Under the pieces are notes generated by a model. That model worked only from the letters and a program-made list of their open reading frames with translations. It searched no databases and was not told the DNA's origin. The translations under genes were made by a program, and so were the position numbers. DNA of 64,000 bases from Beroe forskalii (lineage: Eukaryota; Ctenophora; Nuda; Beroida; Beroidae), in contig WFMF01000217.1 in NCBI GenBank assembly GCA_011033025.1, positions 62,001-126,000 of the forward strand, given 5' to 3'. Shown piece after piece: positions 6,225-52,105 of the stretch; the first letter of the stretch is position 1; each line of letters begins with the position of its first letter.

Positions 6225-6512
6225 ATCACTATCCCCTCACTAGCCCCTGACTAGCCCCTCACTAGCCCTTACTAGCCCCCTCACTAGCCCCTCACTAGCC
6301 CTCACTAGCCCCTTACTAGCCCCTTACCAGCCCCTTACTAGCCTCACAGCCCCTCACTGGCCCTCACTAGCCTCACTGGCCCTCACTGGCAGCCTTTACT
6401 AGCCCCTCACTGGCCCCTTACCAGCCCCCTCACTAGCCCCTCACTAGCCCCTTACTAGCCCCTTACTAGCCCATCACTAGCCCCTTACTAGCCCCTCACT
6501 AGCCCCTCTCTA
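6225..6512. repeat. TAGCCCC minisatellite block 3
   Basis: TAGCCCCTCAC-type units with more variants (TGGCCCTCAC, CAGCCCC) than the outer blocks. It is followed by the conserved segment at 6,512-6,712. Confidence 0.85.
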
Positions 6513-20020: not shown

Positions 20021-20034
20021 GATCCTGTGTATAG

Positions 20035-21260: not shown

Positions 21261-22344
21261 AAAAACCAATCATGATCATATCATACCTAGTATACCATAT
21301 TTTGTTGAAAATTTGGGTTATCACGCAAAGCAAAAACCAATCATGATCATATCATACCTAGTATACCATATTTTGTTGAAAATTTGAGTTATCACGCAAA
21401 GCAAAAAAATAGGCATGGTCTCCGTATCTCATAACAAAAATTGATTTAAACCGGCATTTGCATCGTGTTTCTCGTCTCAAAAATCCATCATGCCACAAAT
21501 TAACAAAAAGTATGACAATAAAATGTTCAAAATTTGGGTAATTGCATGATGCAAAAATGGGCACGGCCAGCATATCTCATCCCAGGAACATTTTTGAATG
21601 AACCCAACTATTGTATCGTGTTTCTCGTCCCTGAAAACCCCTCATGCCACCCATCATGCCACCAAAAATATGCAATAAAATTTCCACATTTTGGGTAATT
21701 GCGCAAGGCCAAAAGTGGGCGTGGTCACCGTGTCTCATCCCAGGAACATTTTTGAGTGAAACCAACTATTGCATCGTGTTTCTCGTCCCTGACAACCCCT
21801 TATTTGATACCCATCATGCCACCTAAAGTATGACAATAAAATTTCCACATTTTGGGTAATCGCGCAAGGCCAAAAGTGGGCGTGGTCACCATATCTCATC
21901 CCAGGAACATTTTTGAGTGAAACCAACTATTGCATCGTGTTTTTCGTCCCCAAAAACCCCTATTTCAATACCCGTCATGCCACCAAAAGTATGACAATTA
22001 AATTTCCACATTTTGGGTAATCGCGCATGGTCAAAAGTGGGCGTGGTCACCATATCTCATCCCAGGAACGTTTTTGAGTGAAACAAACTACTGCATCGTG
22101 TTTCTCGTCCCTAAAACCCCTATTTTATACCCTACATGCCATGTGATGTCAAAATAGTTTTTAGTTCCTTCATTTCGTCATCTACAGGCCAAAAATGGGC
22201 GTGGCCCAAAACGGGTGACGCCATCGAAATAAAAATTGGCGGCAGGTCTAGATCGATTCAGCATAGTCTAAAGTACCAGAATCCGTCCCTAACTCCTTAT
22301 TAACATTCCATATGCACGGGATTCCATTTCGTCCCTGACTATCA

Positions 22345-28469: not shown

Positions 28470-31400
28470 TTAGTCTGTCTTCACCACTGAGTAGATCTTG
28501 TTGATAAACAGGAAACACGACATGAAACCAACGAAACCTGAAATAAAGTTAATTTAAAGGAGAAGAATGAAATAGGGTAAATATTGTTACGAATGAGTGA
28601 ACATGGATCTCTGGAGTCCCTACCAAGATAACAGTGAATTACTCGCCAATGGCCATGGCGTGTAATTTACTGGAGATCGCTGATATTGATCTCCGAATCC
28701 ACGAATCCATGAGCAGACCTGCGTTAATGTATTATCTTAAGCACTACAAAGTAAGGGAGCTAAGGGAGTATGGGATATGGCACATAACCATCTACTATTT
28801 GAAGGGGGTGGGCCAGCGAGGGCCCAGACTGCACCCAGGAGAAGGAGCTTCAGGCCTAAACGAGTGCTCTTTGACCCCCGGGTGGGACGAGAGTCCCTTT
28901 CCTCCCCACATAACTCTCAGTACAGCTGCATTCCGAGATTGACTCACTGCATTCCCAGTATTACTCACCGGTGAGGAGGAAGAAGTAGATTGACATGATG
29001 AAGGTGTAGCCGAAGAAGATGAAGAGCGAAGCAGCCCCCTCCATCTTCAAACGCTCTGAAGAAGGATACAGTGGGTTATTCAGATGACTTTACAGCAGAA
29101 ATGATGAGAAGCAAAATGTGGATTATTGATATTCAGATGAATTTACAGCAAACATGATGAGATTCACTGAATTCTACACCCAAAACTGAAAGCAGAGTTT
29201 TTCATGAACTCTCCAAAAGAAACTTCGTCATTACAGCAAATGCGAAGTGAATAACCTCTGCACTGTAATTAGAGTTTACCGGCGTAGAAGTAGATGGAGT
29301 AAATGAAGAAGTAGAGCGCAGTGCAGCCGCTGCTGAGGTAGGCTCGCCACCACCAGTGGTAGTCCTCAGCACAGAGGTGGAAGTAGCAGAGCAGGATGGT
29401 AGTCTCAGCGCAGGTTATCACAAGGATCAGAAACACGATGAACAGGAACCAGAACATGTAGTAGATCTGGTGGGCCCTGGGGAAGGGGGTTGAGTGGTTG
29501 GAATCAGGGGAATAACGAATATTTTATAGTCAGGGACGAAATGGAATCCCGTGCATATGGAATGTTAATATGAGTTAGGGGACGGACTCTAAGTACTTAG
29601 ACTATGCTGAATCGATCTAGACCTGCCGCCAATTTTTTATTTCGATGGCGTCACCCATTTTGGGCCACGCCCATTTTTGGCCTGATGACGAAATGAAGGG
29701 ACTAAAAACTATTTTGACATCACATGGCATGTAGGGGTATCAAAATAAGTTTTTAGGGACGAGAAACAAGTTGCAATCGTTGGTTTTACTGAAAAACGTT
29801 CGTGGGATGAGATGGTGATTCACGCCCACTTTTGGCCATGCACGATTACCCAAAATGGAAATTTTATTGTCATACTTTTTAGTGGCATGACGGGTATCGA
29901 AATAGGGTTTTTGGGGACGCAGAAACACGATGCAATAGTTGGTTTCACTCAAAAATCTTCCTGGGATGGAGATATGGTGACCACGTCCACTTTTGGCCTT
30001 TAAAAGCGATTACCCAAAAATGGAAATTTTTATTTTTGCATGATGGGTGGTATGATGGGTGGTATGATGGGGTTTGTAAAGTGCGATATCGTTCCAATTG
30101 GCATTATTGATGGGGTCGTCTCGAGAATTATCCCAGGAACAAATGAACTATCGTGTTTCGCCTGCTCTAGACGAGAAACACGATACAATAGTTGGTTTCT
30201 ATTCAAAATGTTCTGGATGAGATATGCTACTGTGCCCATTTTTGCATCATGCAATTACCCAAATTTTTGAAATTTATTTTATTGTCATACTTTTAATTTT
30301 TATTTGTGGCATGATGGATTTTTTGAGACGAGAAACGATGCAAATGCCGGTTTAAATCAATTTTTGTGATGAGACACGGAGACCATGCCTATTTTTTTGC
30401 TTTTGTATGATAACCCAAATTTTCAACAAAATATGGTAAAAAAATTAATAGTTTTTTGGGGGTTAAACAAGATAAACCCCCGTTCATCTCAAAGATTTTT
30501 CAGAGGTGTATAGGGGATTCCATGTCAAAATGGCCAAACCCCAAAATTGGAAAAAGGGATAGGAAACCCATTTTTGGGGGGGAAAATAAGGGAAAAATTG
30601 AACCCCAAGGTCCCAAAAGCGGGAATAATTTTTGTTTTTTTTTTAAAAGCAGTTTGGGTTTTTTAAGTCAGGGGATAGACCTAGGAGGTAAATTTTTTAA
30701 TCACAAAGATAGAGCTGCCCCACCCGGGGCCCAGGGTTTTTGGGGTTAATATGCCGAGGATATGTTGGGGTTTTCTTCATTCCACTCAACTGTGAGATAA
30801 ACTGGAACCCCACCTCACCCATTCTGTGGGCTGCCAACAACCCAAAGGGCCTAATCTGTTTTGTTTTTTTTTTTTTTTGAATAGATCAGAGAATTTTATA
30901 AAAAACCCCCCATTTCTAGCTTAGTCACAAAGCGTTTGATCGACCTAACGTCCTGAAGAACTGTAATATTAATATTGTGCTTTAATTCCATGGCATCATG
31001 TGGTTGAATCAGTGGTTCAGGGACCTGGGTATCATGACTGAGGAGCAGCCAACAGGTATTCTTCCAGCCCCCCGTACCATGCCACATTCAAGGGATATTT
31101 CCCAGTTCTTAGCTTCTAAGCAAATATTGCTGTTTAGAATCAGAGTTTCGCAATAAAATGTTATGATTATGATCATATTCTATGGGGCTGGCATGTTATT
31201 GGGCCTTTGTATCCCCTTTGGATGAATGGGAACATTCCCGATAATAGGTATCACATAATCTCCCTTCAATCAGGTTTTAGCAATCTGGCAGGGGCTTATC
31301 TCTATACACAGGATCAACCATGTACAAGACTTACCGAATGACGGCTTCTCCAACGCTGATCTCACTTATTTTTTATTTAGATGGTTTTACTTCTATTCCA

Positions 31401-34400
31401 ACAGCTGTAACAGCCAATGACAGGAATCGAAGGATTCAAGTGTTATCAAACCAGTGACGGTTAAGGAAGTGTAATCCATACTTTCTTCGCCCGAGACTTC
31501 GCTGCAATAGGCAGCTTCCCATTTAACCCTCCCGTACAGTTTCCTGTATGCTCGACTGAGTGAACCGTGTGGCAGCTTAGGTGAGAGTTCTCACCCTTAG
31601 CACGATAGGCACGGCCGGAAATCGAACCACCAACCTCTCGATTGGAAGAATGACGCCCTAAACCACTGCAGCGCTACCTGGCCACTATACACAGGATCGC
31701 TCATACCAGGCTAACCCTTACCAGTTTACCTTGGGCTACCCGAAACCAGATTCAACCTTATTCAACCTATAGACTCAAACCACGAACGTTATGGAGTAAA
31801 AGCAACTATTGCATCGTGTTCCTCGTCTGAAAAACCTTATTTAGACACCCATCATGCCACCAAAAGTATAGCAATAAAATTTGTATATTTTGAAGAAATC
31901 TCGCAAAGCCAAAGATGGGCGTGGTCACCATATCTCATCCCAGGAACATTTTTGAATGAAACCAACTATTGCATCGTGTTTCTCGCCCTAAAACCCCCTA
32001 TTTTGACACCCATCATGCCATCAAAAATATAAAATAAAATTTCCACATTTTGGGTAATTGCGCAGGCCAAAGGTGGGCGTGGTCCATATCTCATCCCAGG
32101 AACTTTTTTGAGTGAAACCAACTATTGCATCGTGTTTCTCGTCCCTAAAAACCCCTGTTTTGATACCCATCATGCCACCAAAAGTATGACAATAAAATTT
32201 CCACATTTTCGGTAATCGCGCAAGGCCAAAAGTGGGCGTGGTCACCGTATCTCATCCCAGGAACATTTTTGAGTGAAACCAACTATTGCATCGTGTTTCT
32301 CGTCCCTGACAACCCCTATTATGATACCCATCATGCCACCAAAAGTATGATAATAAAATTTCCACATTTTGGGTAATCGCGCAAGGCCAAAAGTGGACGT
32401 GGTCACCATATCTCATCCCAGGAAGATTTTTGAGTGAAACCAACTATTGCATCGTGTTTCTCGTCCCCAAAAACCCCTATTTCGATACCCGTCATGCCAC
32501 TAAAAGTATGACAATAAAATTTCCACATTTTGGGTAATCAAGCAAGATGGCCAAAAAGTGGGCGTGGTCACCATATCTCATCCCACGAACGTTTTTGAGT
32601 AAAACCAACGATTGCAACTTGTTTCTTGTCCCTAAAAACCCCTATTTTGATACCCTACATGCCATGTGATGTCAAAAATAGTTTTTTAGTTCCTTCATTT
32701 TCGTCATCTACAGGCCAAAAATGGGCGTGGCCCAAAATGGGTGACGCCATCGAAATAAAAATTGGCGGCAGGTCTAGATCGATTCAGCATAGTCTAAAGT
32801 ACCAGAATCCGTCCCTAACTCCTTATTAACATTCCATATGCACGGGATTTATATATTGACCATTTCGTCCCTGACTATTAGGGTTAGATTTGAAAGCCAC
32901 AGGAGGATTGGACATGATAAGCATGAGATTGCAGGGATGGCATCGCATACAAGTCTTCCAAATAGTTAATAAATCGTAAGAAATAATCTTACCAGATACT
33001 GTTGAAGATGAAGTAGAGCTGGATGAAGACACTTCCCACAGGGAGAATACCTCCCATGAAGATACCGGGCAGTGGCTTGGTGTAGAAGTTCTGTGGGGGT
33101 ATGTGTCGGGGGATCTGATTGGTGTGCGTGGGGTAGACGATGGCATCCTTCCGGAATCCGAAGAATGCACCGACGAATGTTAGAGGCACTGATACACAGA
33201 TCCTGAAATAGAAACAGCTGATAAACGGTATACGACTACTAAACGGGGGACGGATCTACAAGAGATCCAAACAGAGTCCCCAGCACGGGACCTCCCGCTG
33301 GGAGGTCCCTGATGCCAGGGCTACTTTGGATGGGAACGAATCCCGTACCTTCCCAGGAGGACCAATGTGCCGGGAGCACATACATGGTGGATAAACGGTA
33401 TAACATTGACATCTGAGGGAGAAGCGTCTGTTGCTATTTCAGGTAGGTACCAGAACCAAAACTTACGTGGGTGTATTAGAGGCATTAAAGGTACGATATT
33501 TCTTATGGGCTCTTTAATAACATAAACCTTATTTACCCCACTTCATGCGATCAACTTCTTCAATAAGGTAATGGTACTAAATATTGAGGACCTGGCTTGT
33601 AATGGGTTGAAATGTTAATAGCAGCCAAGATTCATATAAAAAGACTCTGGGTTCCAAAAATTTCGGGAGTCATTCATGAATCCCAACAAAGTGGATGAAC
33701 AATGAACACAAATGAGCCAGAAGAATTCAGAATTGCAATAAGTGTACATACACAATGCGTGTACAAGTCGATGATTCGGTGAAATAATTGAGTATTTTAG
33801 GCCTGGCGTGCGTATACCGGACGCGCAGCGCGGGGCGCGCGCTTTTACGTACTAAATACGTTGATGAAAATGGATTCACGCATCATGATTATGTCCTGGC
33901 GCGTTACGTCTACGTAACACTATTTCGAACTTTTTGTGACATTTCGTCATACCCCCATTGATTACTATGTTAGTTTTGCCTTTGCATTAAGGGTTTTCCA
34001 TAATTTCCCAACTAGATAACTGTATATTTTAAGGTAAGGGCAAGGTCCCTTTACTGTGAGGTTTGGGTCAGTGGGTCATTCCATAGAGTGGGCTATTACC
34101 GAATTTTCCGATTTTAGCACGAATGTGGGTTTTTGTGTTTGTTTTTTTATAGGTACGTTAGGATCTGAGATGGACCATAGTCATTGTGAAATGTAGTGCG
34201 CCGCGCACTGGTGAAGAAATTACTTGAGTTACGTGCAAAACAGAAAAATATTCTGAAGGAGCAGTTTGAAATTAGGAAAATCCCCATGGCAACGTGGAGC
34301 CCCTATATCCCTGTCACATGCTCATTTCCAGTTGCCCGCTTTGCTATTTGCTTACAATTGATTAACTCTGCCAATCTTTCGATCGTTTCACTGAAAATGA

Positions 34401-37400
34401 AGATGTCGAAGACCTTGAAGAAAGTGACGAAATGTTTCAGGAAGAAGAGGAGTGACAGGGTTTACGTATACGACGAGGAGGTAGAAGCATACAGGAGGTC
34501 ACGGTTCGCTAGGTTCTACGGGGCGTTGGGGTTCATCCACGTTCCAAAGCGCCAGAAGTATCAGCCTGAGGTTAGGGATAGGGAGTCTCCACTTCCACTC
34601 CCCTCCCGCAGCACTAGTGTGGAGGGGGAGGAGTGGGAGGTGGAGGGGGTGGAGGTCCTTACTCTCGAGGGGGACTTGCCACCCCGAACAGAGGAGGGGG
34701 AACAGTTGGAGCCCCTTCCGGTCATCATAGCCTGGGAATACCCAGAAGAACAAATGCCAGTTTTTCTGGATTTCCACTATTTTGACAGGGGTTACTAGTT
34801 AGGTTTAGGAGCCATTTTCATTTGTTCTTAGGTTCATGTCAAATCACACATATTCAGATATTTATGACGACCATACGGTCTGATGTCGTTTGAATTTGTT
34901 GAGGCGATTTGAACCTGATAACATGTCCTGTAATTATCCATATTTCATACTGTGCTTAAGTTCAACGTGACTCGATCAAAATCCAAACATTTATGACGAC
35001 CGAATGGTCTGATGTCGTTTGATTTTGTTCGGGAAACTTTGGACTTGTGAACATCATATTCTAGGGTATAGTTTACTTATCGTGTTTTGGTCAACTTAAC
35101 TTGAACAAAATTCAAACATTTATGACGACCAATTGGTCTGATGTCGTTTGATTTCGTTCGAGAAAAGGTAGACCAGATATTATTATTTGACAGAAAATCA
35201 CTAACCATACTTTGCAGCAAACAGGTAGGTATTAACCATTTCAGGTTTCAGACAAGTGCTCCTCAACTAGTGTCATCAGGTAAAAGAAAACATTTCATTT
35301 GTTTTGCATTTCACTCTCAGCTCATTTTACATGACATGATTTGGTTTCAATTTAAGTCATTGATTCTGCCTGTGTTTCATTTTTATAGTTTTATGCACGG
35401 TGATATTATTTTGATTTTAACACCAATTTCATTTCAGGGGACGGGGGCCTATAATCTTTAGGCTATCAACACAACCACCCAAACTCGAATGTCATGCTAC
35501 AACTACACTCAGAAACTATAGACAGATGACGACATAATCAGATTTAACAGACAGATAACGACGCTAGCGGGGATTCTACCAACAGCAGGGACTAAAAAGA
35601 TCACAAAGAAGACAGATGACGACAGGGATTCCATCATCAGATCTACGAAGAAGACATCGAATTCATTATTGATTATAATATCCAAATACAGCTGTCATGG
35701 CTTAATGTTATCTAAATACAATACTTATTAGACTTTCAAACACAATTCAATGAATGACTTTTACTGTCTTCAACATTAATTTATCTGGCGTTATCTCATG
35801 AAATGTTAGGGTTTAGGACAAGGGTCAGTGGGTTATCAAAGAGGGTCAATTCTGCGCTGATTGGGGTCACTTCAGGTTAGGAGAAGGGTTAGTGGGTCAC
35901 TTGAGAGGGTAACTCTGCGCTAATAGAGCAGTAAAGTATCCAGGATTTGAGATCATGTAAAATATTACCAGGGTAGGTATGCAGATTTTCACAGTTGACT
36001 GGAAAATTAGGCCTCATCAGCTATGATTAGATATTTTCCAAAAATTTGAGACTATGCAAATTTCTAAATCTAAAATGCAAGTAAAATTGAAGGGGGTATC
36101 TATTCAAAATTATTTTTCCGTAATGGTTAATCTCCAGAAACTTACTCACTAAGGGAGTATCACTGTGGAAGAAGAAAAAGACACAAAATAAGAAGATAAC
36201 AGTGAGGTTTTTGGTTGAACTGTGGAAGAAAGACACAAAATAAGAAAATAACAGATAAGCACATAAGAGTGATTTGATTGAACGTACCAGAGAGCCAGGA
36301 CTCCACAGAGAGTTCCAAATGGCACAGCAGAGGAGGATCCTTTACCCCACAGAATGAGGTTCAACAGGAAGAACACTGAGAATACGATCCTGAAATTGAG
36401 GTGGTTGGGTACATTTTAAACTTTTAAAAGAGTATTTAGTATTTGTCGGGAAATTCATTTTGTTCACAAAGGCAGACAGATGTATTGGATTTTGTAGCAT
36501 ATCGAGAAGTTTAGTTTGTGACTTGTGTACGTGATTTTACTTTAAAGAATAAGAAAATCATTTAGCATATTATCTATTTTGTTCACAAATATTATACAGT
36601 AATTGGATGAATTGAAAGCAATAACTCACGCTGGTACGAAGAAAGCGGTTAAGAGGACGTTACTCTTCCACTTCTCTCCTCCGAAGCCTGGAAAACTCAA
36701 TGTTAATCAGGAAGATACATCAACCTGTATCCGATAATCCCAACCAGTAGGTACCCATGTTCTCTATGAGCTAACTATCGTCTAACAGTTTTCTGTGAGT
36801 GTTTTTCTTTGCTTTTCTGTAAGCTTGGGTGCAGTAATGCCCGATGTTTTCTCACTTACTCACATCATAGATGCTGACACAATAGAACAATAGAACAAAT
36901 ACTTCTCTCATCTCAATCATTCATCACATTAAACTGATAGCAATGCCCAATGCCCGTGGTACAAGTTATCAATATGCTATGATGAGTAGATAGTGAGTTA
37001 GGATTCATGGTCTGTTTCATGGTCAAAACTTTTATCTCACAGTCAATAGTTAGGATACGGGGAACAATCTAACTATGAGTGGTTAGTACAGGGTAAACTT
37101 TGCTGCTCCTGCAAACCGAAACATGGCATACAAACATATTGTAGGTCCTGAACTGCTATTTAAAAAACTTCCTTAAGGCTCAAAAGTGTTTTGGCAGTAA
37201 ATGAATGACATAGAAGATTGTCCAATGTTCATTTGTCTCGTAAGTCGTAAGCCACCGCTACTTTTCCTCTACTTTTCCGGCATTATTTCACAAAATTGAT
37301 AAATTGCTGCTGCAAGTTGCTAGTTCCATGTACTCATGTAATCATGTAGTAGTTTAGGAGAATTTACTAGTGTACGTATCACAGTACATGGGAGATGTGC

Positions 37401-38093
37401 GGCAACATAAGGTGGTGGAGATGACGTCACTATCAGAGCTTAAAGTGGTATTTAGTGACGATGCAGCGCCCTACTGCTGAGGGGACTAGAGAATTACACA
37501 CCATCCAATGATGCCAACACACACCTAGACGAGGAGTTACTTAACATGAACACTCAGTGTAAACTACATTACACACAAGTTAGACAAACTTGAATATAAC
37601 GCTTACACTCGTGTACTCTTTACACATTACACGTGTGGTAGACAAACATTGGCATTATGCCAGTATAGAAACATACAATACAGCTACAAACTGTCAGACA
37701 GATCAAGACACCGTGAGTAGTTACCTACTAACTACTTCCTACTCAGATTAAGAGCTGATGACAAAAACGGTAAGGGCGATGTTTCAGTTGCAGGAATCTC
37801 GCGCGATTATCCTGCATGCCATTAAACTTCATGCAGAGTTCCATACTTACTTCGATACTTCCAGATTTTAACATACTCATTTAATATGACTGATTACGCG
37901 ATATCATAAACAAGGACAAATGTTAAAGTCATGAACACCCTGTTTTTTGCGTTATGACATCATCTCAACTCACTTTTGTATATCCTGGCAGAGAAGTATC
38001 CGGCAGGGGATCCGAAACACACGTACATGACCACACCCATACTCAGCAGGAAACCTCTGTTACCAGGGTACAGGAACCCAAGACACGATACCA
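28470..38093 (-). CDS. TM9SF2: TM9SF2-like gene, minus-strand copy (C-terminal seven exons)
   Basis: Transmembrane 9 superfamily member of endosome/Golgi membranes. Exons in gene order are 37,974-38,093; 36,630-36,687; 36,288-36,389; 32,993-33,202; 29,280-29,476; 28,969-29,055; 28,470-28,537 (TAA at 28,470-28,472). All have AG acceptors and GT donors, and all phases join. The product, about 280 residues, contains [78 protein letters not shown] and a C-terminal [10 protein letters not shown]. The FYTKPLPGI stretch and the KIYSVVK end point to TM9SF2 rather than TM9SF4. These are the last six to seven membrane segments. The exon coding [15 protein letters not shown] and everything upstream is absent from this arm. 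The 210-nt exon differs from the plus copy at 11 sites, all synonymous. An old LINE 3' scrap lies in the last intron but one. Confidence 0.9.
28785..28940 (-). mobile_element. Old LINE 3'-end scrap in TM9SF2 intron (left copy)
   Basis: About 150 bp containing GAAGGAGCTTCAGGCCTAAA and ACCCCCGGGTGGGACGAGAG, beside a TAGTAG-type end. The same scrap is at about 51,640-51,790 in the right arm, so it predates the duplication. The end CATCTACTA resembles the GTAGTAGATG end of the LINE at 12,655. Confidence 0.45.
30440..30870. other. Probable low-quality sequence inside foldback copy 2
   Basis: Homopolymers are expanded and bases blurred compared with copy 1 (for example the stretch equivalent to 21,180-21,260). 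Runs of G, A and T of 6-16 bases occur throughout. Frames here should not be trusted. Confidence 0.6.
31316..31684 (-). mobile_element. tRNA-derived SINE in foldback copy 2
   Basis: Reverse orientation of the SINE at 19,656-20,020, with the B box (complement of GGTTCGAT) near 31,623 and the same 14-bp flanks (CTATACACAGGATC at 31,302-31,315 and 31,685-31,698). Confidence 0.7.
33233..33389 (-). mobile_element. 5'-truncated LINE 3' end with 13-bp target duplication
   Basis: 157 bp matching the last part of the LINE at 11,631-12,655 in reverse orientation. It is flanked by GATAAACGGTATA at 33,220-33,232 and 33,390-33,402. The right arm has the single-copy target (about 50,555-50,572). The insertion lies 17 bases upstream of a TM9SF2 splice acceptor (exon edge 33,202) and the acceptor is intact. 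Confidence 0.85.
34196..34798 (+). CDS. Conserved hypothetical protein nested antisense in a TM9SF2 intron (left copy)
   Basis: I do not recognise this family. The open frame has 200 codons, is preceded by TGA at 34,187 and ends with TAG. The first in-frame ATG is residue 31 (MATWSPY), giving about 170 residues. Another ATG pair (MKMSKTLKK) follows near residue 67. The middle is strongly basic ([15 protein letters not shown]) with [16 protein letters not shown]. The C-terminal third is acidic and proline-rich ([22 protein letters not shown]) and ends DFHYFDRGY. Compared with the copy at 45,276-45,878, I count about 14 synonymous changes and five altered residues, and no indels. That ratio indicates purifying selection on protein. 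Upstream exons are possible, because the first 30 codons are identical in both copies but lack ATG. It could be a domesticated transposon gene. Confidence 0.6.
   Translation: MRRALVKKLLELRAKQKNILKEQFEIRKIPMATWSPYIPVTCSFPVARFAICLQLINSANLSIVSLKMKMSKTLKKVTKCFRKKRSDRVYVYDEEVEAYRRSRFARFYGALGFIHVPKRQKYQPEVRDRESPLPLPSRSTSVEGEEWEVEGVEVLTLEGDLPPRTEEGEQLEPLPVIIAWEYPEEQMPVFLDFHYFDRGY
34850..35160 (+). repeat. Three GACGACC...GGTCTGATGTCGTTTG repeats downstream of the nested ORF
   Basis: TTTATGACGACC, four variable bases, then GGTCTGATGTCGTTTGA occurs at about 34,860, 34,990 and 35,118, spaced about 130 bp. The three variable loops are ATAC, GAAT and AATT. The flanking ACC/GGT can pair. All three occur in the right arm at 44,930-45,220, with one stem change there. 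Confidence 0.7.
35220..35460 (+). other. Conserved intronic segment with splice-like signals on the antisense strand
   Basis: Downstream of the nested ORF, on its strand, acceptor- and donor-like sites are kept in both arms: CAG/GTAGGT at 35,223, ATTTCAG/GTTTCAG at 35,243, ATCAG/GTAAAAG at 35,280 and CATTTCAG/GG at about 35,438. This may be further exons of the nested gene. The reading frame through the region is not conserved at its end, so coding is unlikely here. Confidence 0.3.
35790..35935. repeat. About 60-bp direct repeat (GGTCACTT / GCGCTGAT type)
   Basis: Two units containing AGGGTTAGTGGGTCA and TCTGCGCT(G/A)AT. The right arm (44,085-44,265) has three units, showing copy-number change between the arms. 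Confidence 0.6.
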
Positions 38094-39250: not shown

Positions 39251-39765
39251 TTGCAGTTGGGATCAGTGATGTCCACGCACTCCATCTCCTCGTTCACAGC
39301 TCCAGTCGAGTAAGGAGTTGCTGATTGGAGGTGTGTAACCCGGAACCGGTGGCTTATCCGGGTATTGTGCAAGGAATTCTCCCAGAGCTATTTTGAATGC
39401 CTCTAGCTCCATAACTGAGTTGACTTGTCGTAAGCAGTGGAAACCGAGCGCTGTGCCTTGTAATTGAAAGGCAGGATTTTTGCTCGGACTCCAAGACGTT
39501 CATTGATGTATAATTCCAAACTTGTGCTGTTCGGGGCCTCTTCCTGCAGAATCTTCCATACATATGGATTATGGTGTACCGTTCTCTTCTGCGTTGGAGA
39601 GACATCAGCTTAAACTTCTTCAGACGGTCCCAGTAGCGAGGATCCTTGGTCCCAGCAATGCGTTTGGTTAAGTATCGCTGTATTGATTCCACGGCTTGAA
39701 TGTCCTTGATCAAATGAGGATCCCAGACAGAGCAACAGTACTCCAGTCTACCCTTACAAGGGACT
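39250..39765 (-). pseudogene. LINE ORF2 C-terminal fragment (after the reverse transcriptase)
   Basis: On the minus strand LEYCCSVWDPHLIKDIQAVE, SIQRYLTKRIAGTKDPRYWD and LMSLQRRRERYTIIHMY follow one another (39,555-39,765), the well-known thumb region of CR1/L2-type LINEs. Further on, other frames give INERLGVRAK and then QGTALGFHCLRQVN, LEAFKIALGEFLAQYPD and SNSLLDWSCERG, so at least two frameshifts separate the pieces. Endonuclease and catalytic reverse transcriptase are missing. This lies in the loop, next to the exon-derived array. Confidence 0.75.
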
Positions 39766-39784
39766 TGAAATACATCCAAAAAAA

Positions 39785-41245
39785 ACCCAAAACCCCAGGA
39801 AATCCCTAGAAAAAAATTTCGGGGAAATTTAGTGCCCCCCCAAAAAAGGGACCCTTCGGGGGGTTTATCCAAAAGTCTAATCCCCCCCCCCTCAGGAAGA
39901 CCCCCGGGAAGAGTTCGGAGGGAAAGTTATTGACCCAGTACCTTTTTAAATCCCACCCCCCCCTCAAAAACCCCCAGGAAGAGCGGAGGGAAAGTTTGCA
40001 CGGTGACTCAGTATCAGTGTTTCCCCCTTTCCCCCAGGAAGACCCCCGGGAAGGTTCGGATGGAAGTTGGGGCATGACCAGTATACTGTTTAACCCCATC
40101 CACCCCGGGAAAGACCCCCGGGAAGTTGGTAAAATGCCCCATATCTATTTTAACCCCACCCCCCTCGGGAAGAGTATCCTAGTGTTAATCCCACCACCCC
40201 CTCCAGGAAGATCCCCAGGAAGAGTTCGGCTGGAAGTTAGTGCACGGTGACTCAGTATCCTAGTGTTCATCCCATCACCCCCCAGGAAGATCCCCAGGAA
40301 GAGTTCGGATGGAAGTTAGTGCACGGTGACCCAGTATCCTAGTGTTAATCCCACCCTCCCCTCAGGAAGATCCCCAGGAAGAGTTCGGATGGAAGTTAGT
40401 GCACGGTGACTCAGTATCCTAGTGCTAATCCCACCCTCCCCCCAGGAAGATCCCCAGGAAGAGTTTGGATGGAAGTTAGTGCACGGTGACTCAGTATCTA
40501 GTGTTAATCCCACTCTCCCCCCAGGAAGATCCCCAGGAAGAGTTCGGATGGAAGTTAGTGCACGGTGACTCAGTATCCTAGTGTTAATCCCACTCTCCCC
40601 CCAGGAAGATCCCCAGGAAGAGTTTGGATGGAAGTTAGTGCACGGTGACCCAGTATCCTAGTGCTAATCCCATCCTCCCCTCAGGAAGATCCCCAGGAAG
40701 AGTTCGGATGGAAGTTAGTGCACGGTGACTCAGTATCCTAGTGTTAATCCCACTCTCCCCCCAGGAAGATCCCCAGGAAGAGTTTGGATGGAAGTTAGTG
40801 CACGGTAACCCAGTATCCTAGTGTTGATCCCATCCTCCCCTCAGGAAGATCCCCAGGAAGAGTTTGGATGGAAGTTAGTGCACGGTGACCCAGTATCCTA
40901 GTGTTAATCCCACCACCCCCTCCAAGAGGTCCCCAGGAAGAGTTCGGCTGGAAGTTAGTGCACGGTGACCCAGTATCCTAGTGTTAATCCCATCCTCCCC
41001 TCAGGAAGATCCCCAGGAAGAGTTCGGATGGAAGTTGGTACTTTTGGTGACTCAGTATCTGGTGCTAATCCCACCCTCCCCTCAGGAAGATCCCCAGGAG
41101 GAGTTCGGATGGAAGTTAGTGCACGGTGACCCAGTATCCTAGTGTTAATCCCATCCTCCCCTCAGGAAGATCCCCAGGAGGAGTTCGGATGGAAGTTAGT
41201 GCACGGTGACCCAGTATCCTAGTGTTAATCCCACCCTCCCCTCAG
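39785..41245 (+). repeat. 80-bp array made of a TM9SF2 splice acceptor plus 45 bp of exon
   Basis: About 13 good units (40,205-41,245) and roughly five degenerate ones (39,785-40,200) precede the true exon. Each unit is 35 bp of intron end (CAGTATCCTAGTGTTAATCC, a C/T-rich tract and CAG) plus 45 bp coding [15 protein letters not shown]. In each unit the exon part is followed by TCAGTATCCTAG, giving an in-frame stop if retained. CACG/GTGACT inside each unit could act as a donor, but would give a 40-nt exon out of frame. The degenerate part coincides with low-quality-looking sequence. It appears only in the plus-strand copy. Confidence 0.85.
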
Positions 41246-44200
41246 GAAGATCCCCAGGAAGAGTTCGGATGGAAGTTAGTGCACGGTGACGTGTTCAGAC
41301 CTCCCAGGAAGGGCATGATGTTGAGTGTGCTGGTGGGAAGTGGGGCCCAGGTCTTCATGATGGTCACTATCACTCTGCGTACGTGACACGTCTACTAGAT
41401 TCTTAGACTATAAATATTGAAAGATTGAGGGGACCAATTTTAAGCTCTAGATTGATTTAGAAGTCTCCGAAGACCTTGAGTCACTGCTACTTGTAATCAT
41501 GATTTTTTGTGCGATATCAAAGAGGCGTATCTGTTGTTAAAACTGTTATTTAGGAGGTAATCAATAGACCATTCTTTAAAATAACCCAGTTTCTCCTTCC
41601 AGTGGTATCGTGTCTTGGGTTCCTGTACCCTGGTAACAGGGGCTTCCTGCTGAGTATGGGAGTGGTCATGTACGTGTGTTTCGGATCCCCTGCAGGGTAC
41701 TTCTCTGCCAGGATATACAAAAGTGAGTTGAGATGATGTCACTAATTAACTCAAAAAACAGGGAGTTCATTGAACATTCGTGCGTGTTTATCTGGAACTG
41801 CACATGAAGTAGAATGGTCTGCAGACTGATAGCACAATAGCATTGCTCTTAATAACCTGAGTAGGTTACAGGTATCTACTCACGGTGTTTTGATCTTTCT
41901 GACAGTTTGTAGCTGTATTCTATGTTTCTACTATATGGCATAATGCCAATGTTTGTCTACCACACGTGTATAAATGTGTAATCGTGTACAGAGTACACGA
42001 TTACACTGTGCAGAGTAAACGTGTACAATATACACGAGTGTAAGCGTTGTATTCAACTTAGTCTAACTTGTGTGTAATGCAGTTTACACTGAGTGTTCAT
42101 GTTAAGTAACACCTCCTCTGGGTGTGTTGGCATCATTGGATGGTGTGTAATTCTCTAGTCCCCTCTCAACAGTAGGGCGCTGCACCGTCACTAACATACC
42201 ACGTAAAGCTATGATACTGACGTCATCTCCACCACCTTATGTTACCGCACATCTCCCGTGTACTGTGTAGTACACTAGTAAATTCTCCTAAACTACATGA
42301 TCACATGAGTACATGGAACTAGCAACTTGCAGCAGCAATTTACTAATTTATTGAAATAATGCCGGAAAGGAAGAGGAATAGAAGAGGTGGCTTACGAGAC
42401 AAATGAACATTGGACAATCTTCAATGTCAGTCATTCACTGCAAAAACACTTTTAGCCTTTATGAACTTTCTTTAAATAGCACTTCAGGACCTACAATATG
42501 TTTGTATGCCATGTTTCGGTTTGCAGGAGCAGCAAAGTTTACCCTGTACTTTAAACCACTCATAGTAAGATTGTTCCCCGTATCCTAACTAGTGACTGTG
42601 AGATAAAAGTTTTGACCATGAAATTGACCATGAATCCACACTCACTATCTACTCATCATAGCATATTGATAACTTGTACCATGGGCATTGGGCATCACCA
42701 TCAGTTTAATGTGATGAATGAATGAGATGAGAGAAGTAGTTGTACTATAGTAGTAGTGTCAGCATCTATGATGTGAGAAAACATAGGGCATTACTGCACC
42801 CAAGCTTACAGACAATTCCAACAACAAACAAGCACAGACACGCACTCACAGAAAACTGAAAAACTGATAGACGATAATTAGCTCATAGAGAACGTGAGTA
42901 CCTACTGGTTGGGATTATCGGACCAGATTGTTGTATCTTCTTGAGTAACATTGAGTTTTCCAGGTTTCGGAGGAGAAAAGTGGAAGAGTAACGTCCTGCT
43001 AACCGCTTTCTTCGTACCAGCGTGAGTTCTTGCTTTCAATTCATCCAATTACTGTATAATATTTGTGAACAAAATAGGTTTTATGCTAAATAATTTTCTT
43101 ATTCTTTAAAGTAAAATCATGTACACAATTGTGAACAAACTAAACTTATCGATATGCTACGTACTACAAAAAACCCAATACATCTGTCTCCATTTATGAA
43201 CAAAATGAATTTCCCGACAAATACTGAATACTCTTTTAGAAGTTTAAAATGTATCCAACCACCTCAATTTCAGGATCGTATTCTCAGTGTTCTTCCTGCT
43301 TAATCTGATTCTGTGGGGTAAAGGATCCTCCTCTGCAGTGCCCTTCGGAACTCTCTGTGGAGTACTGGCTCTCTGGTACGTTCAATAGGTCTTATTTTGT
43401 GTCTTTTTCTGGCTCTCTGGTACGTTCAATCACTCTTATTTTGTGTCTTCCACAGTTCAACCGAAAACCTCTCTGTTATCTTCTTATTTTGTGTTTTTCT
43501 TCCACAGTTCAACCGAAAACCTCTCTGTTATCTTCTTATTTTGTGTTTTTCTTCCACAGTTCAACCGAAAACCTCTCTGTTATCTTCTTATTTTGTGTTT
43601 TTCTTCCACAGTTTAACCAAAAACCTCTCTGTTATTTTCTTATTTTGTGTTTTTCTTCCACAGTTCAACCAAAAACCTCTCTGTTATCTTCTTATTTTGT
43701 ATTTTTCTTCCACAGTTCAACCAAAAACCTCTCTGTTATTTTCTTATTTTGTGTTTTTCTTCCACAGTTCAACCAAAAACCTCTATGAGTCTATGTTATC
43801 TTCTTATTTTGTGTCTTTTTCTTCTTCCACAAATGTGTGATACTTCCTAAGTGAGTTAGTTTCTGGGGAGTAACCATTACGGAAAAATGCTTTTGAATGG
43901 ATACACAAACCCCCTCCAATTTTACCTGCATTTTAGATTTAGAAATTTGCACAGTCTCAAATTTTTGGAAAATATCTAATCATAGCTGATGAGGCCTTAT
44001 TTTCCAGTCAACTGGGAAAATCGGCATACCTACCCTGGGAGTATTTTACATGATCTCAAATCCTGGATACTTTACTGCTCTATTAGCGCAGAGTTACCTT
44101 TTCAAGTGACCCACTAACCCATTTCCTAACCTAAAGTGACCCCAATAAGCGCAGAATTGACCCTCTCAAGTGACCCACTAACCCTTCTCCTAACCTGAAG

Positions 44201-47200
44201 TGACCCCAATCAGCGCGATTTGACCCTCTTTGGTAACCCACTGACCCTTGTCCTAAACCCTAACATTTCATCAGATAACACCAGATAATTTAATGTTGAA
44301 AACAGTAAAAGTCATCCATTGAATTGTGTTTTAAAATCTAAAAAGTATTGTAATTAGAAAACTTCAAGCCATGACAGCTGTATTTGGATATTTTAATCAA
44401 CAATGAATTCGATGTCTTCTTCGTAGATCTGATGATGGAATCCCTGTCGTCATATGTCTTCTTTGTGATCTTTATTCTTTAGTCCCTGTCGTTGGTAGAA
44501 TCCTCGCTAGCGTCGTTATCTGTCTGCAAACTCTGATTCTGTCGTCATCTGTCTGTAGTTTCTGAGTGTAGTTGTAGCAATGACATCCGAGTTTGGATGG
44601 TTGTGTTGATAGCCTAAAGATTATAGGCCCCCGTCTCCTGAAATGGAATTGGTGTTAAAAATCAAAATAATATCACCGTGCATAAAACTATAAAAATGAA
44701 ACAAAGGCAGAATCAATAATTTAAATTGCAACCAAATCATGTCATGAAAAATGGGCTGAGAGTGAAATGCAAAACAAATGAAATGTTTTCTTTTACCTGA
44801 TGACACTAGTTGAGGAGCACTTGTCTGAAACCTGAAATGGTTAATACCTACCCGTTTGCTGCAAAGTATGGTTAGTGATTTTCTATCAAATAATAATATC
44901 TGGTCTAACTTTTCTCGAACAAAATCAAACGACATCAGACCAATTGGTCGTCATAAATGTTTGAATTTTGTTCAAGTTAAGTTGACCGAAACACGATAAG
45001 TAGACTACCCTAAAATATGATGTTCACAAGTCCAAAGTTTCCCGAACAAAATCAAACGACATCAGACCATTCAGTCGTCATAAATGTTTGGATTTCGATC
45101 GAGTCACGTTGAACTTAAGCACAGTATGAAATATGGATAATTACAGGACATGTTATCAGGTTCAAATCGCCTCAACAAATTCAAACGACATCAGACCGTA
45201 TGGTCGTCATAAATATCTGAATATGCGTGATTTGACATGAACCTAAGAACAAATAAAAATGGACCGTAAACCTAACTAGTAACCCCTGTCAAAATAGTGG
45301 AAATCCAGAAAAACAGGCATTTGTTCTTCTGGGTATTCCCAGGCTATTATGACGGGGAGGGGCTCCAACTGCTCCCCCTCCTCTGTTTTGGGTGGCAAGT
45401 CCCCCTCGAGAGTGAGGACCTCCACCCCCTCCACCTCCCACTCCTCCCCCTCCACACTGATGCTGCGGGAGGGGAGTGGGAGTGGAGACTCCCTATCCCT
45501 AACCTCAGGCTGATACTTCTGGCGCTGTGGAATGTGGATGAACCCCAACGCCCCGTAGAACCGTGCGAACCGTGACCTCCTGTATGCTTCTACCTCCTCA
45601 TCGTATACGTAAACCCTGTCACTCCTTTTCTTCCTGAAACATTTCGTCACTTTCTTCAAGGTCTTCGACATCTTCATTTTCAATGAAACGATCGAAAGAT
45701 TGGCAGAGTTAATCAGTTGTAAGCAAATAGCAAAGCGGGCAACTGGAAATGAGCATGTGGCAGGGATATAGGGGCTCCACGTTGCCATGGGGATTTTCCT
45801 AATTTCAAACTGCTCCTTCAGAATATTTTTCTGTTTTGCACGTAACTCAAGTAATTTCTTCACCAGTGCGCGGCGCACTGCATTTCACAATGACTATAGT
45901 CCATCTCAGATCCTAACGTACCTATGAAAAAACAAAAAAACCCACATCCGTGCTAAAATCGGAAAATTCGGTCATAGCCATCTCTCTGGAGTGACCCACT
46001 GATCCAATCCGCACAGTAAAATGATTCTGCCCTTACCTTACAATATACTGTTCTCTAGTTGGGAAATTATGGAAAACCCTAAACGCAAAACTAACATTTA
46101 TCAAAAGCAAAACTAACATTGTAATCAAACGGGGTTATTCCATCCATAGTTTATTGATAAATGGGATTATGACGAAATGTCACAAAAAGTTCGAAATAAG
46201 GCTCCGTAGACGTAAGAGTTCATGATTCCGTGAAAATGGATGCAAATTGGATGCACTTGGATGCAATTGGGAAAATTTTCCCAAAATTGGGAAAATGGCT
46301 TTTTAGCCTGTTTAATGCACTGAAAATGATTCCAAATGGTTGGAATATGTTTGTATAGATGATACGAGTCCTAGGACCGTTTTGGAAAATTTGGCCATCA
46401 CTGAGAGCCGATATGGGCGAAAAAGGCCGAAAAAAGCCGAAAATTAAAATTGCTCAAAATTGATTGATTTCTATCGACTCAAATGTGTTCATAAACATCC
46501 ACAAAGTCATTCGTTTTCCGGGTGAAAATTATTTATTTTTCCCAAAAATGGATGCATCCAAGAAATTTGGTCTGAGAAAAGGGGTGGATGCATTTTCCCA
46601 AAATTGGGAAATGGCTTTTAGCCTGTTTAATGCACTGAAAATGATTTCAAATGGTTGGAATATGTTTGTATAGATGATACACGAGTCCTAGGACCGTTTT
46701 TGAAAAATTTGGCCATCACTGAGAGCCGATATGGGCGAAAAAAGGCCGAAAAAATAGAAAATTAAAGAAATTGAGTTTCTATCGACTCAAATGTGTTTTA
46801 TATAGACATCCTAGAAGTCATTCTGCGTCGTTTTCCGGGTGAAAATTGCTTTATTTTTCCCAAAAAATGGATGCATCCAAGTGCGAATTTGGTCTGAGAA
46901 AAGTGGATGCATTTTCCCAAAATTAGGAAAATGGCTTTTTAGCCTGTTTAATGCACTGAAAATGATTCAAAATGGTTGGAATATGTTTGTATAGATGATA
47001 CACGAGTCCTAGGACCGTTTTTGGAAAAATTTATTACCATCACTGAGGAGCCATGGGCGAAAAAGGCCGAAAAAGCCGAAATTAAAATTGCTCAAAATTG
47101 ATTTCTATCGACTCAAATGTGTTTATAAATATCCTAGAAGTCATTCTGCGTCATTTTCCGGTGAAAATTGCTTTATTTTTCCCAAAAATGGATGCATCCG

Positions 47201-50200
47201 TGCGAAATTTGGTCTGAGAAAAGTGGATGCATTTTCCCCAAATTAGAAAATGGCTTTTTAGCCTGTTTAATGCACTGAAAATGATTCCAAATGGTTGGAA
47301 TATGTTTGTATAGATGATACACGAGTCGGAGACCGTTTTTTGAGGTTTATCATACTGAGAGCCGATATGGGCGAAAAAGGCCGAAAAAAGCCGAAAATTA
47401 AATTCAAACATATTCCCATCCTATTTGAAATTCTTTTTTCAGGTAAAAAGCCATTTTTCCCAAAAATGGGAAAATGTAGTCCAAATTTTTCCTGAAAAAA
47501 TTGGATGCATTTTCCCATTTTTGGGAAAAATAAAGCAATTTTCACCCGGAAACGACGCAGAATGACTTCTAGGATGTTTATGAACACATTTTGAGTCGAT
47601 AAAATCAATTTTGAGCAATTTTAATTTTCGGCTTTTTCGGCTTTTTTCGCCCATATCGGCTCTCAGTGATGGCCAAATTTTCCAAAAACGGTCCTAAGAC
47701 TCGTGTATCATTCTCTACAAACATATTCCAACCATTTGAATCATTTTCAGTGCATTAAACAGGTTAAAAGCCATTTTCCCAATTTTGGGAAAATGCATCC
47801 ACTTTTTCTCAGACCAAATTTTGATGCATGCATCCATTTTTGGGGAAAATAAAGGAATTTTCACCCGAAAACGACGCAGAATGACTTCTAGGATGTTTAT
47901 AAACACATTTGAGTCGATAGAAATCAATTTTTGAGCAATTTTAATTTTTTTTGGGCCTTTTTTCGCCCATATCGGCTCTCAGTGATGGCCAAATTTTCCA
48001 CGGTCCTAAGACTCGTGTATCATCTCTACAAACATATTCCAACCATTTGGAATCATTTTCAGTGCATTAAACAGGCTTAAAAGCCATTTTCCCAATTTTG
48101 GGAAAATGCATCCACTTTTTCTCAGACCAAATTTCGCACTTGGATGTATCCATTTTGGGGAAAATAAAGCAATTTTCACCCGGAAAACGACGCAGAATGA
48201 CTTCTAGGATGTTTGGTAAAACACATTTGGGGTCGATAGAAATCAATTTTTGGAGCAATTTTAATTTTCGGTTTTTCTGGCCTTTTCGCCCATATCGCCT
48301 CCGTGATGGCCAAATTTTCCAAAAAAACGGTCCTAGGACTCGTATTATCTATACAAACATATTCCAACCATTTGGAATCATTTTCAGTGCATTAAACAGG
48401 TTAAAAGCCATTTTCCCAATTTTGGGGAAAAAATAATCCAATTTTTCTCAGACCAAATTGCACTTGGATGCATCCATTTTTGGGAAAATAAAGCAATTTT
48501 CACCCGAAAACGACGCAGAATGACTTAGGATGTTTATAAACACATTTGAGCCGATAGAAATCACTTTTGAGCAATTTTTATTTTTTCGGCCTTTTTTCGC
48601 CCATATCGGCTCTCAGTGATGGCCAAATTCTTCCAAAACGGTCCTAGGGACTCGTGTATCATCTATACAAACATATTCCAAACCATTTGGAATCATTTTC
48701 AGCATTAAACAGGGCTAAAAGCCATTTTCCAATTTTGGGAAAATGCATCCACTTTTTCTCAGACCAAATGTACTTGATGCATCCATTTTTTTGGGAAAAT
48801 AGCAATTTTCACCTGAAAACGACGCAGAATGACTTAGGATGTTTATAAACACATTTGGTCAGATAGAAATCAATTTTGAGCAATTTTTAATTTTCGGCTT
48901 TTTCGGCCTTTTTTCCATATCGGCTCTCCGTGATGGCCAAATTTTCCAAAAACGGTCCTAGGACTCGTGTTTTATCTATACAAACATATTCCAACCATTT
49001 GGAATCATTTTCAGTGCATTAAACAGGTTAAGGCTTTTTTGGCCTTTTCGCCCATATCGGCTCTCGGTGATGGCCAAATTTTCCACGAGGTCCTAAGACT
49101 CATGTATCATCTCTACAAAATATATTCCAACCATTTGGAATCATTTCAGTGCATTAAACAGGCTTAAAAGCTTATTTCCATTTTCCCAATTTTGGGAAAA
49201 TGCATCCACTTTTTCTCAGACCAAATTTCGCACTTGGATGCATCCATTTTTGGGAAAATAAAGCAATTTTCACCCGGAAACGACGCAGAATGACTTCTAG
49301 GATGTTTATAAACACATTTAGTCGATAGAAATCCAATTTTGAGCAATTTTAATTTTCGGCTTTTTTCGGCCTTTTTCGCCCATATCGGCTCTCCGTGATG
49401 GCCAAATTTTCCAAAAACGGTCCTAGGACTCGTGTTTTATCTATACAAACATATTCCAACCATTTGGAATCATTTTCAGTGCATTAAACAGGCTAAGGCT
49501 TTTTTTGGCCTTTTTCGCCCATATCGGCTCTCAGTGATGGCCAAATTTTCCAAAAACGGTCCTAGGACTCGTGTATCATCTATATAAACATATTCCAACC
49601 ATTTGGAATCATTTTCAGTGCATTAAACAGGCTAAAAGCCATTTTCCCAATTTTGGGAAAATGCATCCACTTTTTCTCAGACCAAATTTTGCACTTGGAT
49701 GCATCCATTTGTGGGAAAAATAAAGCAATTTTCAGCCCGAATTTTAAAAGTGAAATGATTCAATTTTGGCTGGAAATACACGGACCTTTTCTTTAGATGT
49801 CTTTGAATAAATGTTAGTCGATACAAATCAAATTGTGTTAATGTTTTCGGTATTTTGCCTCAATCTGGTATCCTAAAACGGCTAAGTCTCCTTAAAGTGG
49901 CTTTACCAACCAACCATCATCTATTCAATGATATTCTAATCCGTATTTTCAATCATACTCTATCAGTCTGAGTCACTTTTAAGAAAATGGTAAAATTTTC
50001 CCAACTTCATTCTACAGAATCGCATATATCGAGCGCGCGCGGATTTTCCCAATTTGCATCCAACCCACGGAATCATCTTCTGAGACGTAACGCGCCAGGA
50101 CATAATTGTGATGCGTGAATCCATTTACATCAACGAATTTAGTACGTAAAAGCGCGCGCCCCGCGCTGCGCGTTCGATATGCATACGCGAAAAATACACA

Positions 50201-52105
50201 ATTATTGCACGGAATCATCGACTTGTACACTTATGTACACTTAATGCAATTCAAAATTCTTTTGGCCTTTTTGTGTTCATTGATCATCCACTTTGTTGGG
50301 ATTCATGAATGACTCCCGAAATTATTATAATCCAGAGTCTTTTTATATGATTCTTGGCTGCTTTTAACATTTCAGCCCATTACAAGCCAGGTCCTCAATA
50401 TTTAGTACCATTACCTTATTGAAGAAGTTGCTCGCATGAAGTGGGTAATTAAGGTTGATTTTATTGAAGAGCCCACTAGAAATATCGTACCTATAATGCC
50501 TCTAATATACCCACCTGAAATAGAAACAGACGCTTCTCCCTCAAATTTCAATGTTATACCGTTTATCAGCTGTTTCAATTTCTGGATCTGTGTGTCAGTT
50601 CCCCTAACGTTCGTCGGTGCATTCTTCGGATTCCGGAAAGATGCCATCGTCTACCCAACACACACCAATCAGATCCCCCGCCACATTCCCCCACAGAACT
50701 TCTACACCAAGCCACTACCCGGTATCTTCATGGGTGGTATTCTCCCTGTGGGAAGTGTCTTCATCCAGCTCTACTTCATCTTCAACAGTATCTGGTAAGA
50801 GGGGGATTATTCATTATTTCTTACGATTTAGTATTCGGAAGACTTGTATGCGATGCCATCCCTGAACCTTATGCTTATCATGTCCAATCCTCCTGTGGCT
50901 TTCAAATCTAACCCTGAAATATTCGTAATTCCCCTGATTCCACCCACTCCACCATGTCCCCCAGGGCCCACCAGATCTACTACATGTTCTGGTTCCTGTT
51001 CATCGTGTTTCTGATCCTTGTGATAACCTGCGCTGAGACGACCATCCTGCTCTGCTACTTCCACCTCTGTGCTGAGGACTACCACTGGTGGTGGAGAGCC
51101 TACCTCAGCAGCGGCTGTACTGCGCTGTACTTCTTCATTTACTCCATCTACTTCTACGCGGGTACCCTAATAGTGGCAGTTTGAACTGCAGTTTTGTGTG
51201 CGCGGCGTTAGTTTGCACGCAGCATAAAGAAATGCTGAAATATGAAATGTTATTAACGTGTCTTGATGCCGCGCATACAAAAACTGCAATTCGAACTGTC
51301 ACCATAAACTCTTATTACACACGGGCCCTTCACTTCGCATCTGCTAATAACGAAGTTTCATTTGGAGAGTTCATGAAAACTCTGCTATCCGTTTTGAGTG
51401 TAGAATTCAGTGAATCTCATCATTTCTGCTGTAAATTCATCTGAATAACCCGCTGTATTCGTCTTCAGAGCGTTTGAAGATGGAGGGGGCTGCTTCGCTC
51501 TTCATCTTCTTCGGCTACACCTTCATCATGTCAATCTACTTCTTCCTCCTCACCGGTGAGTAATACTGAGAATGCAGCTGTAGGGGGGGGGGGGCAACCC
51601 CTCACTGGTGAGTAATACTGGGATTGAAGTGAGTCGACCTCGGAATGCAGCTGTACTGAGAGTTATGTGGGGAGGAAAGGGACTCTCGTCCCACCCGGGG
51701 GCCAAAGAGCGCTCGTTTAGGCCTGAAGCTCCTTCTCCTACTCTTGGCCTTGTGCGCCTCGCAGGCCCATCCCCTATATAGTAGTAGATGGTTATGTGCC
51801 ACATGCCCTGCTTAGAACTCTCTTAGCTCCCTTATTGGCCAGTGTTTACAATAACGCAGGTCTGCTCATGGATTGGTGGATTCGGAGATCAATATTAGCG
51901 ATCTCCAGTAAATTTAACACGCCATAGGCGAGTAATTTACTGTTATCTTGGTAGGGACTCCAGAGATCCATGTTCACTCATGCGTAATAATATTTACCCT
52001 ATTTCATTCTTCTCCTTTTAAATTAACTTTATTTCAGGCTTCGTTGGTTTCATGTCGTGTTTCCTGTTTATCAACAAGATCTACTCAGTGGTGAAGACCG
52101 ACTAA
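41246..52105 (+). CDS. TM9SF2: TM9SF2-like gene, plus-strand copy (C-terminal eight exons)
   Basis: Exons: 41,246-41,378; 41,603-41,722; 42,964-43,021; 43,274-43,375; 50,585-50,794; 50,965-51,161; 51,469-51,555; 52,038-52,105 (TAA 52,103-52,105). All phases join, giving about 324 residues from [15 protein letters not shown] through [10 protein letters not shown] and the last membrane segments to [10 protein letters not shown]. The family has about 650 residues, so the N-terminal lumenal half is not in the window. Exon lengths equal those of the minus copy. Oddities: the acceptor of the 50,585 exon is TG instead of AG (a CAG at 50,567-50,569 would add five in-frame residues). The donor at 51,162 is altered by a MITE to GTACCC. 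Two donors are duplicated (43,376/43,420 and 51,556/51,608). The first acceptor is multiplied in the 80-bp array. The protein frame is intact, so this may still be expressed or may be starting to decay. Confidence 0.9.
43440..43835 (+). repeat. 56-bp intronic array with repeated acceptor-like sites
   Basis: About seven units of TTCTTCCACAG-TTCAACC, AAAACCTCTCTGTTAT and TTCTTATTTTGTGT. Each unit carries a polypyrimidine tract ending in CACAG. The left arm has only two units (36,165-36,245). Reading frames across it are repeat artefacts. Confidence 0.85.
45276..45878 (-). CDS. Conserved hypothetical protein nested antisense in a TM9SF2 intron (right copy)
   Basis: Ortholog-like partner of the frame at 34,196-34,798, same 200-codon length and TAG stop, no indels. 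Residue differences are V to A (TCSF region), V to I and K to Q in the HVPKRQ stretch, T to I before SVEGEE, and R to K before TEEGEQ. All other changes I found are synonymous. A basic middle and an acidic C-terminus are kept. First in-frame ATG is again residue 31. It is not recognised as a known family, and no signal peptide or membrane segment is clear in the C-terminal two thirds. Confidence 0.6.
   Translation of the reverse strand: MRRALVKKLLELRAKQKNILKEQFEIRKIPMATWSPYIPATCSFPVARFAICLQLINSANLSIVSLKMKMSKTLKKVTKCFRKKRSDRVYVYDEEVEAYRRSRFARFYGALGFIHIPQRQKYQPEVRDRESPLPLPSRSISVEGEEWEVEGVEVLTLEGDLPPKTEEGEQLEPLPVIIAWEYPEEQMPVFLDFHYFDRGY
46216..50082. mobile_element. 3.87-kb MULE-type foldback made of tandem repeats
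   Basis: The termini are GAGTTCATGATTCCGTG (46,216) and the complement of CAGAAGATGATTCCGTG (50,082). They are flanked by AGACGTAA at 46,208-46,215 and 50,083-50,090. The empty site in the other arm is at about 33,900-33,915. The left arm (to about 47,430) and right arm (from about 47,440) are inverted arrays of 300-350-bp units with TGGATGCATCC, CCCAATTTTGGGAAAATGC, GACGCAGAATGACTTCTAGG and CGTTTTTGGAAAATTTGGCC. No coding frame is credible. The termini match those of 22,591-26,434, so both were probably moved by the same MULE-type transposase. Confidence 0.85.
51165..51304. mobile_element. 140-bp MITE inserted in a TM9SF2 splice donor
   Basis: TIRs GGCAGTTTGAACTGCAG and its near match, GACAGTTCGAATTGCAG on the opposite strand, each lead into TTTTGTGTGCGCGGC-like sequence. 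It is flanked by TA at 51,163-51,164 and 51,305-51,306. The left-arm copy reads GGTAAACTCTAATTAC without it. Insertion changes the donor from GTAAAC to GTACCC. Confidence 0.8.
51640..51790 (+). mobile_element. Old LINE 3'-end scrap in TM9SF2 intron (right copy)
   Basis: Counterpart of 28,785-28,940 with TTTAGGCCTGAAGCTCCTTC and ending near ATAGTAGTAGATGG. It was present before the duplication. Confidence 0.45.

Follow-up and report, generated by a model that had tools for sequence, protein, structure and literature searches.

What does an intron-exon boundary do when it stands not once but many times over in front of a single exon? In the window analysed here, a stretch of 64,000 nucleotides of a Beroe forskalii contig, one exon of an EMP70/TM9SF gene is preceded by just such a series, repeated with a period of 80 bp. 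The repeats might alter the choice of acceptor, might be an inert minisatellite within an intron, or might owe their existence to the assembly.

The array is readily detected by TRF, which reports 14.0 copies between 40173 and 41290 with 91% matches and a score of 1857; the 80-bp period and this score rule out a chance origin. Alignment to a repeated consensus covers 39866-41290, beginning with a partial intron end, continuing with 17 units from 39896, and closing with 45 nt that form the start of the real exon and are identical to the exonic part of the unit. Each unit combines 45 nt of exon start (15 codons) with 35 nt of intron end, which bears out the description in the original prediction of an intron end followed by the first 15 codons of an exon. 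The units span 39896-41245 and lie directly before the real exon:

39896 to 40206, forward strand: four degraded leftmost units, 61-78% identity to the consensus
40207 to 41245, forward strand: 13 clean 80-bp units, 88-100% identity to the consensus
41246 to 41378, forward strand: exon A, the complete exon adjoining the array, with an EMP70 match and its end set by the donor

The figure of about 13 repeats first proposed for this locus agrees with the clean units and misses the four degraded ones, which bring the total to 17. At the edge of the array the last unit is followed by an authentic boundary, and exon A joins in frame to the exons designated B-G, here listed for the right-hand of two gene copies:

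41603 to 41722, 42964 to 43021, 43274 to 43375 and 50585 to 50794, forward strand: exons B-G of the right copy, homology model
50965 to 51161, 51469 to 51555 and 52038 to 52105 (with the stop codon), forward strand: exons B-G of the right copy, continued, homology model

EMP70 domain matches over the exons place the gene in the EMP70/TM9SF family. Exon A (searched as 41246-41377) matches positions 239-280 of the Pfam EMP70 profile with an E-value of 1.4e-17, and the frame over exon D matches positions 363-444 with an E-value of 1.1e-27. Within the family, the name TM9SF2 was assigned from peptides aligned to the window by tblastn, and we treat the gene as TM9SF2-like.

The splice signals of the units are largely, but not uniformly, intact. 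It had been claimed that every unit offers a full acceptor; this does not hold, as AG precedes 14 of the 17 inner units (12 of the 13 clean ones) and is absent at the units beginning at 39967, 40110 and 40926. A branch-site-like YTNAY motif begins 20-22 nt upstream in all 13 clean units, and each of these also carries a pyrimidine stretch of 80-87%. When the 18 possible acceptors were spliced in silico to exons B-G, a single one, at 41246, remained open to the natural stop, giving 324 codons; the other 17 run for 10 to 70 codons before a stop, and all alternative frames are closed. The expectation that all exon parts except the last run into TAG was thus correct in that all 17 meet an in-frame stop. 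It was too uniform in its detail: the TAG supplied by the unit sequence ends the frame at codon 19 in 10 of the 13 clean units, and the remaining three stop at codons 41, 11 and 46. A reading of the array as coding repeats was rejected, every frame from an inner acceptor closing before the natural stop.

Repeats of this type have been described in lancelets. There, 'mirages' are tandem repeats of intron-exon boundaries in Adh3, the globin genes BflGb6 and BflGb9, and PGBD5 (PMC3087553; PMC3902484), and the cited passages on PGBD5, whose splice sites carry repeats of 60 and 108 bp, name troponin C as another case (PMC3902484). The BflGb6 units, of 150-160 bp, consist of an intron 3' end and an exon 5' part and number six in one haplotype versus three in the other; the units of Adh3 measure 10-72 bp; and RT-PCR together with the Adh3 data suggested regular splicing despite the mirages (PMC3087553). 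In common with the lancelet mirages, as far as the cited passages describe them, the array in Beroe has tandem units that cross an exon-intron boundary (45 nt of exon, 35 nt of intron), carry splice signals and adjoin an authentic boundary, that of the complete exon A. It differs in its TM9SF2-like host gene, its 80-bp unit and its at least 13 clean units. The initial view of the locus as a repeated splice acceptor in a housekeeping gene, and as a VNTR that is probably unstable, was right in its anatomy and matches what is reported for these mirages (PMC3087553; PMC3902484). On our best reading, the array would be a further case, in another gene, of a structure already known from lancelets. 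A search of one open-licence library found no paper on TM9SF2 with a tandem repeat and a splice acceptor, and none on TM9SF2 with lancelet.

We propose a general explanation, which we consider probable: the array is a mirage-type minisatellite that arose when an intron-exon boundary of a TM9SF2-like gene was duplicated in tandem, is intronic and mostly silent, and lies at what appears to be an assembly misjoin. This explanation draws on the anatomy of the array, its single open acceptor, the variants among its units, a second boundary duplication at exon C2, the lancelet precedent and the use of the distal site in the human CBS allele 844ins68. The array would behave as intron, with the outermost acceptor used in most transcripts; transcripts spliced to an inner acceptor would gain a premature stop and be subject to nonsense-mediated decay; and array length would change by slippage or unequal exchange. 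The assembly, in turn, would have placed the array where two diverged gene copies are misjoined head to head.

The same features could also be arranged into a regulatory device, in which the inner acceptors are poison sites and the number of units sets how much mRNA survives. With such a copy-number dial, alleles with more poison-acceptor units would lose more pre-mRNA to decay, and gain or loss of units in the germline or the soma would tune a housekeeping gene. The logic is workable, in that all inner acceptors lead to a stop, and AG, pyrimidine tract and branch-like motif are kept together in 12 of the 13 clean inner units. However, recent copying alone accounts for the retained signals, and published mirages are reported to splice regularly in the cited passages (PMC3087553). 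Given these precedents we regard both the tuner and its operation as a dial as improbable, and the original prediction's suggestion of altered acceptor choice or tuned output is unsupported here.

Duplicated splice junctions are also known from human CBS. The 844ins68 allele duplicates 68 bp of the intron 7/exon 8 junction, and the distal site is strongly favoured (PMC2630376); the cited passage calls this site a 'donor', while the title of a reference it cites for this variant speaks of a 3' splice site. It resembles the array in its duplicated junction and competing sites (two in CBS), but is one 68-bp insertion and not a long array. The 31-bp VNTR c.1444_1467+7 of the same gene, linked to reduced enzyme activity in the title of a paper cited there (PMC2630376), likewise spans, to judge by its name, an exon end and an intron start; unlike our array, it concerns a donor-side boundary in a different gene. 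In a model of intron gain by tandem genomic duplication, tandem copies with splice signals could become new introns (PMC3087553; PMC4974935). The copies described here also carry splice signals, but no new intron is shown and every inner unit ends in a stop. With thirteen near-identical AG acceptors (12 clean inner ones and the real one) before one exon, the locus provides a natural test of how the spliceosome chooses between equivalent 3' sites, and it is equally a natural test of the proposal that boundary repeats seed new introns.

The clean units can be told apart by their sequences. They differ from each other at up to 16 aligned columns, carry both private and shared variants, and include a single identical pair (the units at 40525 and 40685). 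Being distinct in their variants, these 13 units are not one segment stuttered by an assembler. An assembly artefact responsible for the array itself is consequently, in our judgement, very improbable: the array does border on atypical sequence at the inverted-repeat axis, and one BflGb6 cluster was, according to its authors, aberrantly assembled in the draft lancelet genome (PMC3087553), but the clean units have their own variants and run unbroken into an intact exon. Eleven of the clean units have all 45 nt of the exonic part, and among these we counted four distinct changes, three of them silent. Variable columns make up 10 of 45 in the exonic part versus 10 of 35 in the intronic part (p 0.61), or 6 of 45 versus 9 of 35 when the aberrant unit at 41005 is left out (p 0.25). 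The two parts do not differ in this respect, and the case for selection on the exonic part of the units is weak. Neighbouring units were not significantly more alike at lags 1-4 (p 0.61, 0.26, 0.48 and 0.18).

The left end of the array is of a different character and meets the following stretch:

39785 to 40172, no strand assigned: homopolymer-rich stretch at the inverted-repeat axis, mean run 1.99

By comparison, the mean homopolymer run in 389-bp windows is at most 1.98, with a median of 1.43 and a value of 1.75 at the 99th percentile. A second inflated stretch (1.94) occurs at 30414-30900, in a fold-back element that the left gene copy carries in one of its introns. The segment around it (30394-31170) aligns to the other, related element of the window with 76% identity, versus 93% and 89% for two control segments. 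Collapsing homopolymers did not raise identity in three of the four degraded units (0.66-0.71 versus 0.78), raised it in the fourth (0.71 versus 0.61), and gave 0.65 versus 0.76 in the patch 30394-31170. Pure homopolymer-length error is therefore not supported as the cause of the degraded units, one excepted, or of the patch. Since plain homopolymer-length error is not the whole explanation, real old divergence is possible for the degraded units, and this result slightly lowered our confidence in the main explanation. We nonetheless lean towards poor consensus in both the degraded left units and the patch. An assembly error had been named at the outset as the finding that would overturn the array; this concern is justified for the left end, whose unusual sequence coincides with the axis of the large inverted repeat and where a misjoin is likely, but not for the clean units, which look genuine. 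Adjoining the homopolymer-rich stretch, 39354-39784 on the reverse strand looks by eye like the reverse-transcriptase end of a LINE, and a Pfam search of it gave no match.

The inverted repeat, which the original prediction had not spotted, consists of two copies of the 3' half of the gene, inverted about a point near 40 kb:

28470 to 38093, reverse strand: left gene copy, exons B-G (38093-28470 in gene order); exon A not found there
41246 to 52105, forward strand: right gene copy, exons A-G

The two arms can be aligned between 41390/38327 and 52220/28354; indels are numerous, and 4.6-7.9% of the aligned columns in the main blocks carry a substitution. Over exons B-G, with right exon D taken at the homologous boundary despite its CTG acceptor, 35 of 840 compared coding positions differ between the copies (4.2%), all of them synonymous, corresponding to a pS of 0.185, a pN of 0 and 279 identical residues. 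Both copies look, from these sequences, to have been selected as parts of working genes. Among the tblastn matches listed, exon A was found in the right copy and not in the left. A search for an upstream exon produced nothing convincing among the matches listed (best E-value 0.30), the query being a single upstream peptide with which a diverged exon could be missed.

Inverted copies that differ by 35 synonymous changes and no amino acid, an exon A on the right side only, no convincing upstream exon among the matches listed, and unusual sequence at the axis all point the same way: two alleles or paralogues may have been misjoined head to head where the array lies, and neither the position of its left end nor the number of its units can be relied on. 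If misjoined, the two copies are perhaps the two haplotypes. Lancelets are 3.2-4.2% heterozygous in the cited passages (PMC12500494; PMC12862219), and set against the 4.2% coding difference found here, this makes the alleles of a very heterozygous animal one candidate source. Nonetheless, a pS of 0.185 is high for alleles and disfavours them. Moreover, homology between the copies ends 115 bp past the stop codon, and no more of it was detected when 11.8 kb were compared with 28.4 kb; this is easier to reconcile with a duplicated gene or heavy insertion than with simple alleles. The two copies may also be paralogues or form a true inverted pair.

If the inverted pair were genuine, it would represent a head-to-head duplication, with the array at the broken 5' edge of one gene and the degraded units old and diverged. 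Homology that is limited to the gene, the pS value, a window free of any N and the failure of homopolymer collapse to restore three of the four degraded units would all agree with this, and inversions reportedly arise at a very high rate in lancelets (PMC12500494). However, 279 identical residues with 35 silent changes are unexpected for two truncated copies, exon A is missing from the left copy, the tblastn matches listed include no convincing upstream exon, and the homopolymer runs at the junction exceed the range of the whole window. We consider a genuine pair unlikely on balance, while giving it real weight beside the misjoin. More generally, the locus is a warning that real repeats may fall exactly in the weakest part of an assembly, and that a single assembly should not be relied on for the number of units.

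Boundary duplication recurs in this gene and differs between its copies:

43365 to 43449, forward strand: donor duplication of exon C2, with donors at 43365 and 43409, 44 bp apart

The sequence across the exon C2 donor (CTGGCTCTCTG in the exon, then GTACGTTCAAT in the intron) is present twice in the right copy and once in the left; if used, the second donor would bring in a stop within the added piece, as judged in silico. A comparison of unit number between the two gene copies is confined to the C2 donor (two versus one), the array exon not having been found in the left copy. Immediately after this duplication lies an intronic array with a 52-bp unit (43446-43784, 6.5 copies), several copies of which match one stretch in the left gene copy.

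Further features of the gene pair and its surroundings were recorded. Exon D of the right copy has CTG at its acceptor (50585), and that of the left copy has CAG. A move to the closest AG upstream would lengthen the right-copy product by five residues in frame; the CTG may reflect either a wrong base or an allele whose acceptor has shifted. An intron of both copies contains an antisense open frame of 202 codons (45276-45884, reverse strand; 34190-34798, forward strand), with 15 synonymous and six amino-acid differences between the copies (pS 0.114, pN 0.013). It has no Pfam match up to an E-value of 1 and is perhaps an undescribed gene; additional Pfam scans covering five frames produced no match above the cut-off. 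Two related elements of ~3.4-3.6 kb, at 18781-22342 and 29526-32878, have ends made of inverted arrays of a 161-bp satellite and probably constitute a fold-back transposon family. An open frame at 11625-12413 on the forward strand contains an RNase H domain (Pfam, E-value 5.9e-9) and is thus part of a retroelement. Finally, rotations of the 11-bp unit CCCTCACTAGC or of its complement form arrays that occupy 1-1231, 6226-6515, 16317-16589 and 16833-17995, where they sit within nested inverted repeats in the first 18 kb of the window.
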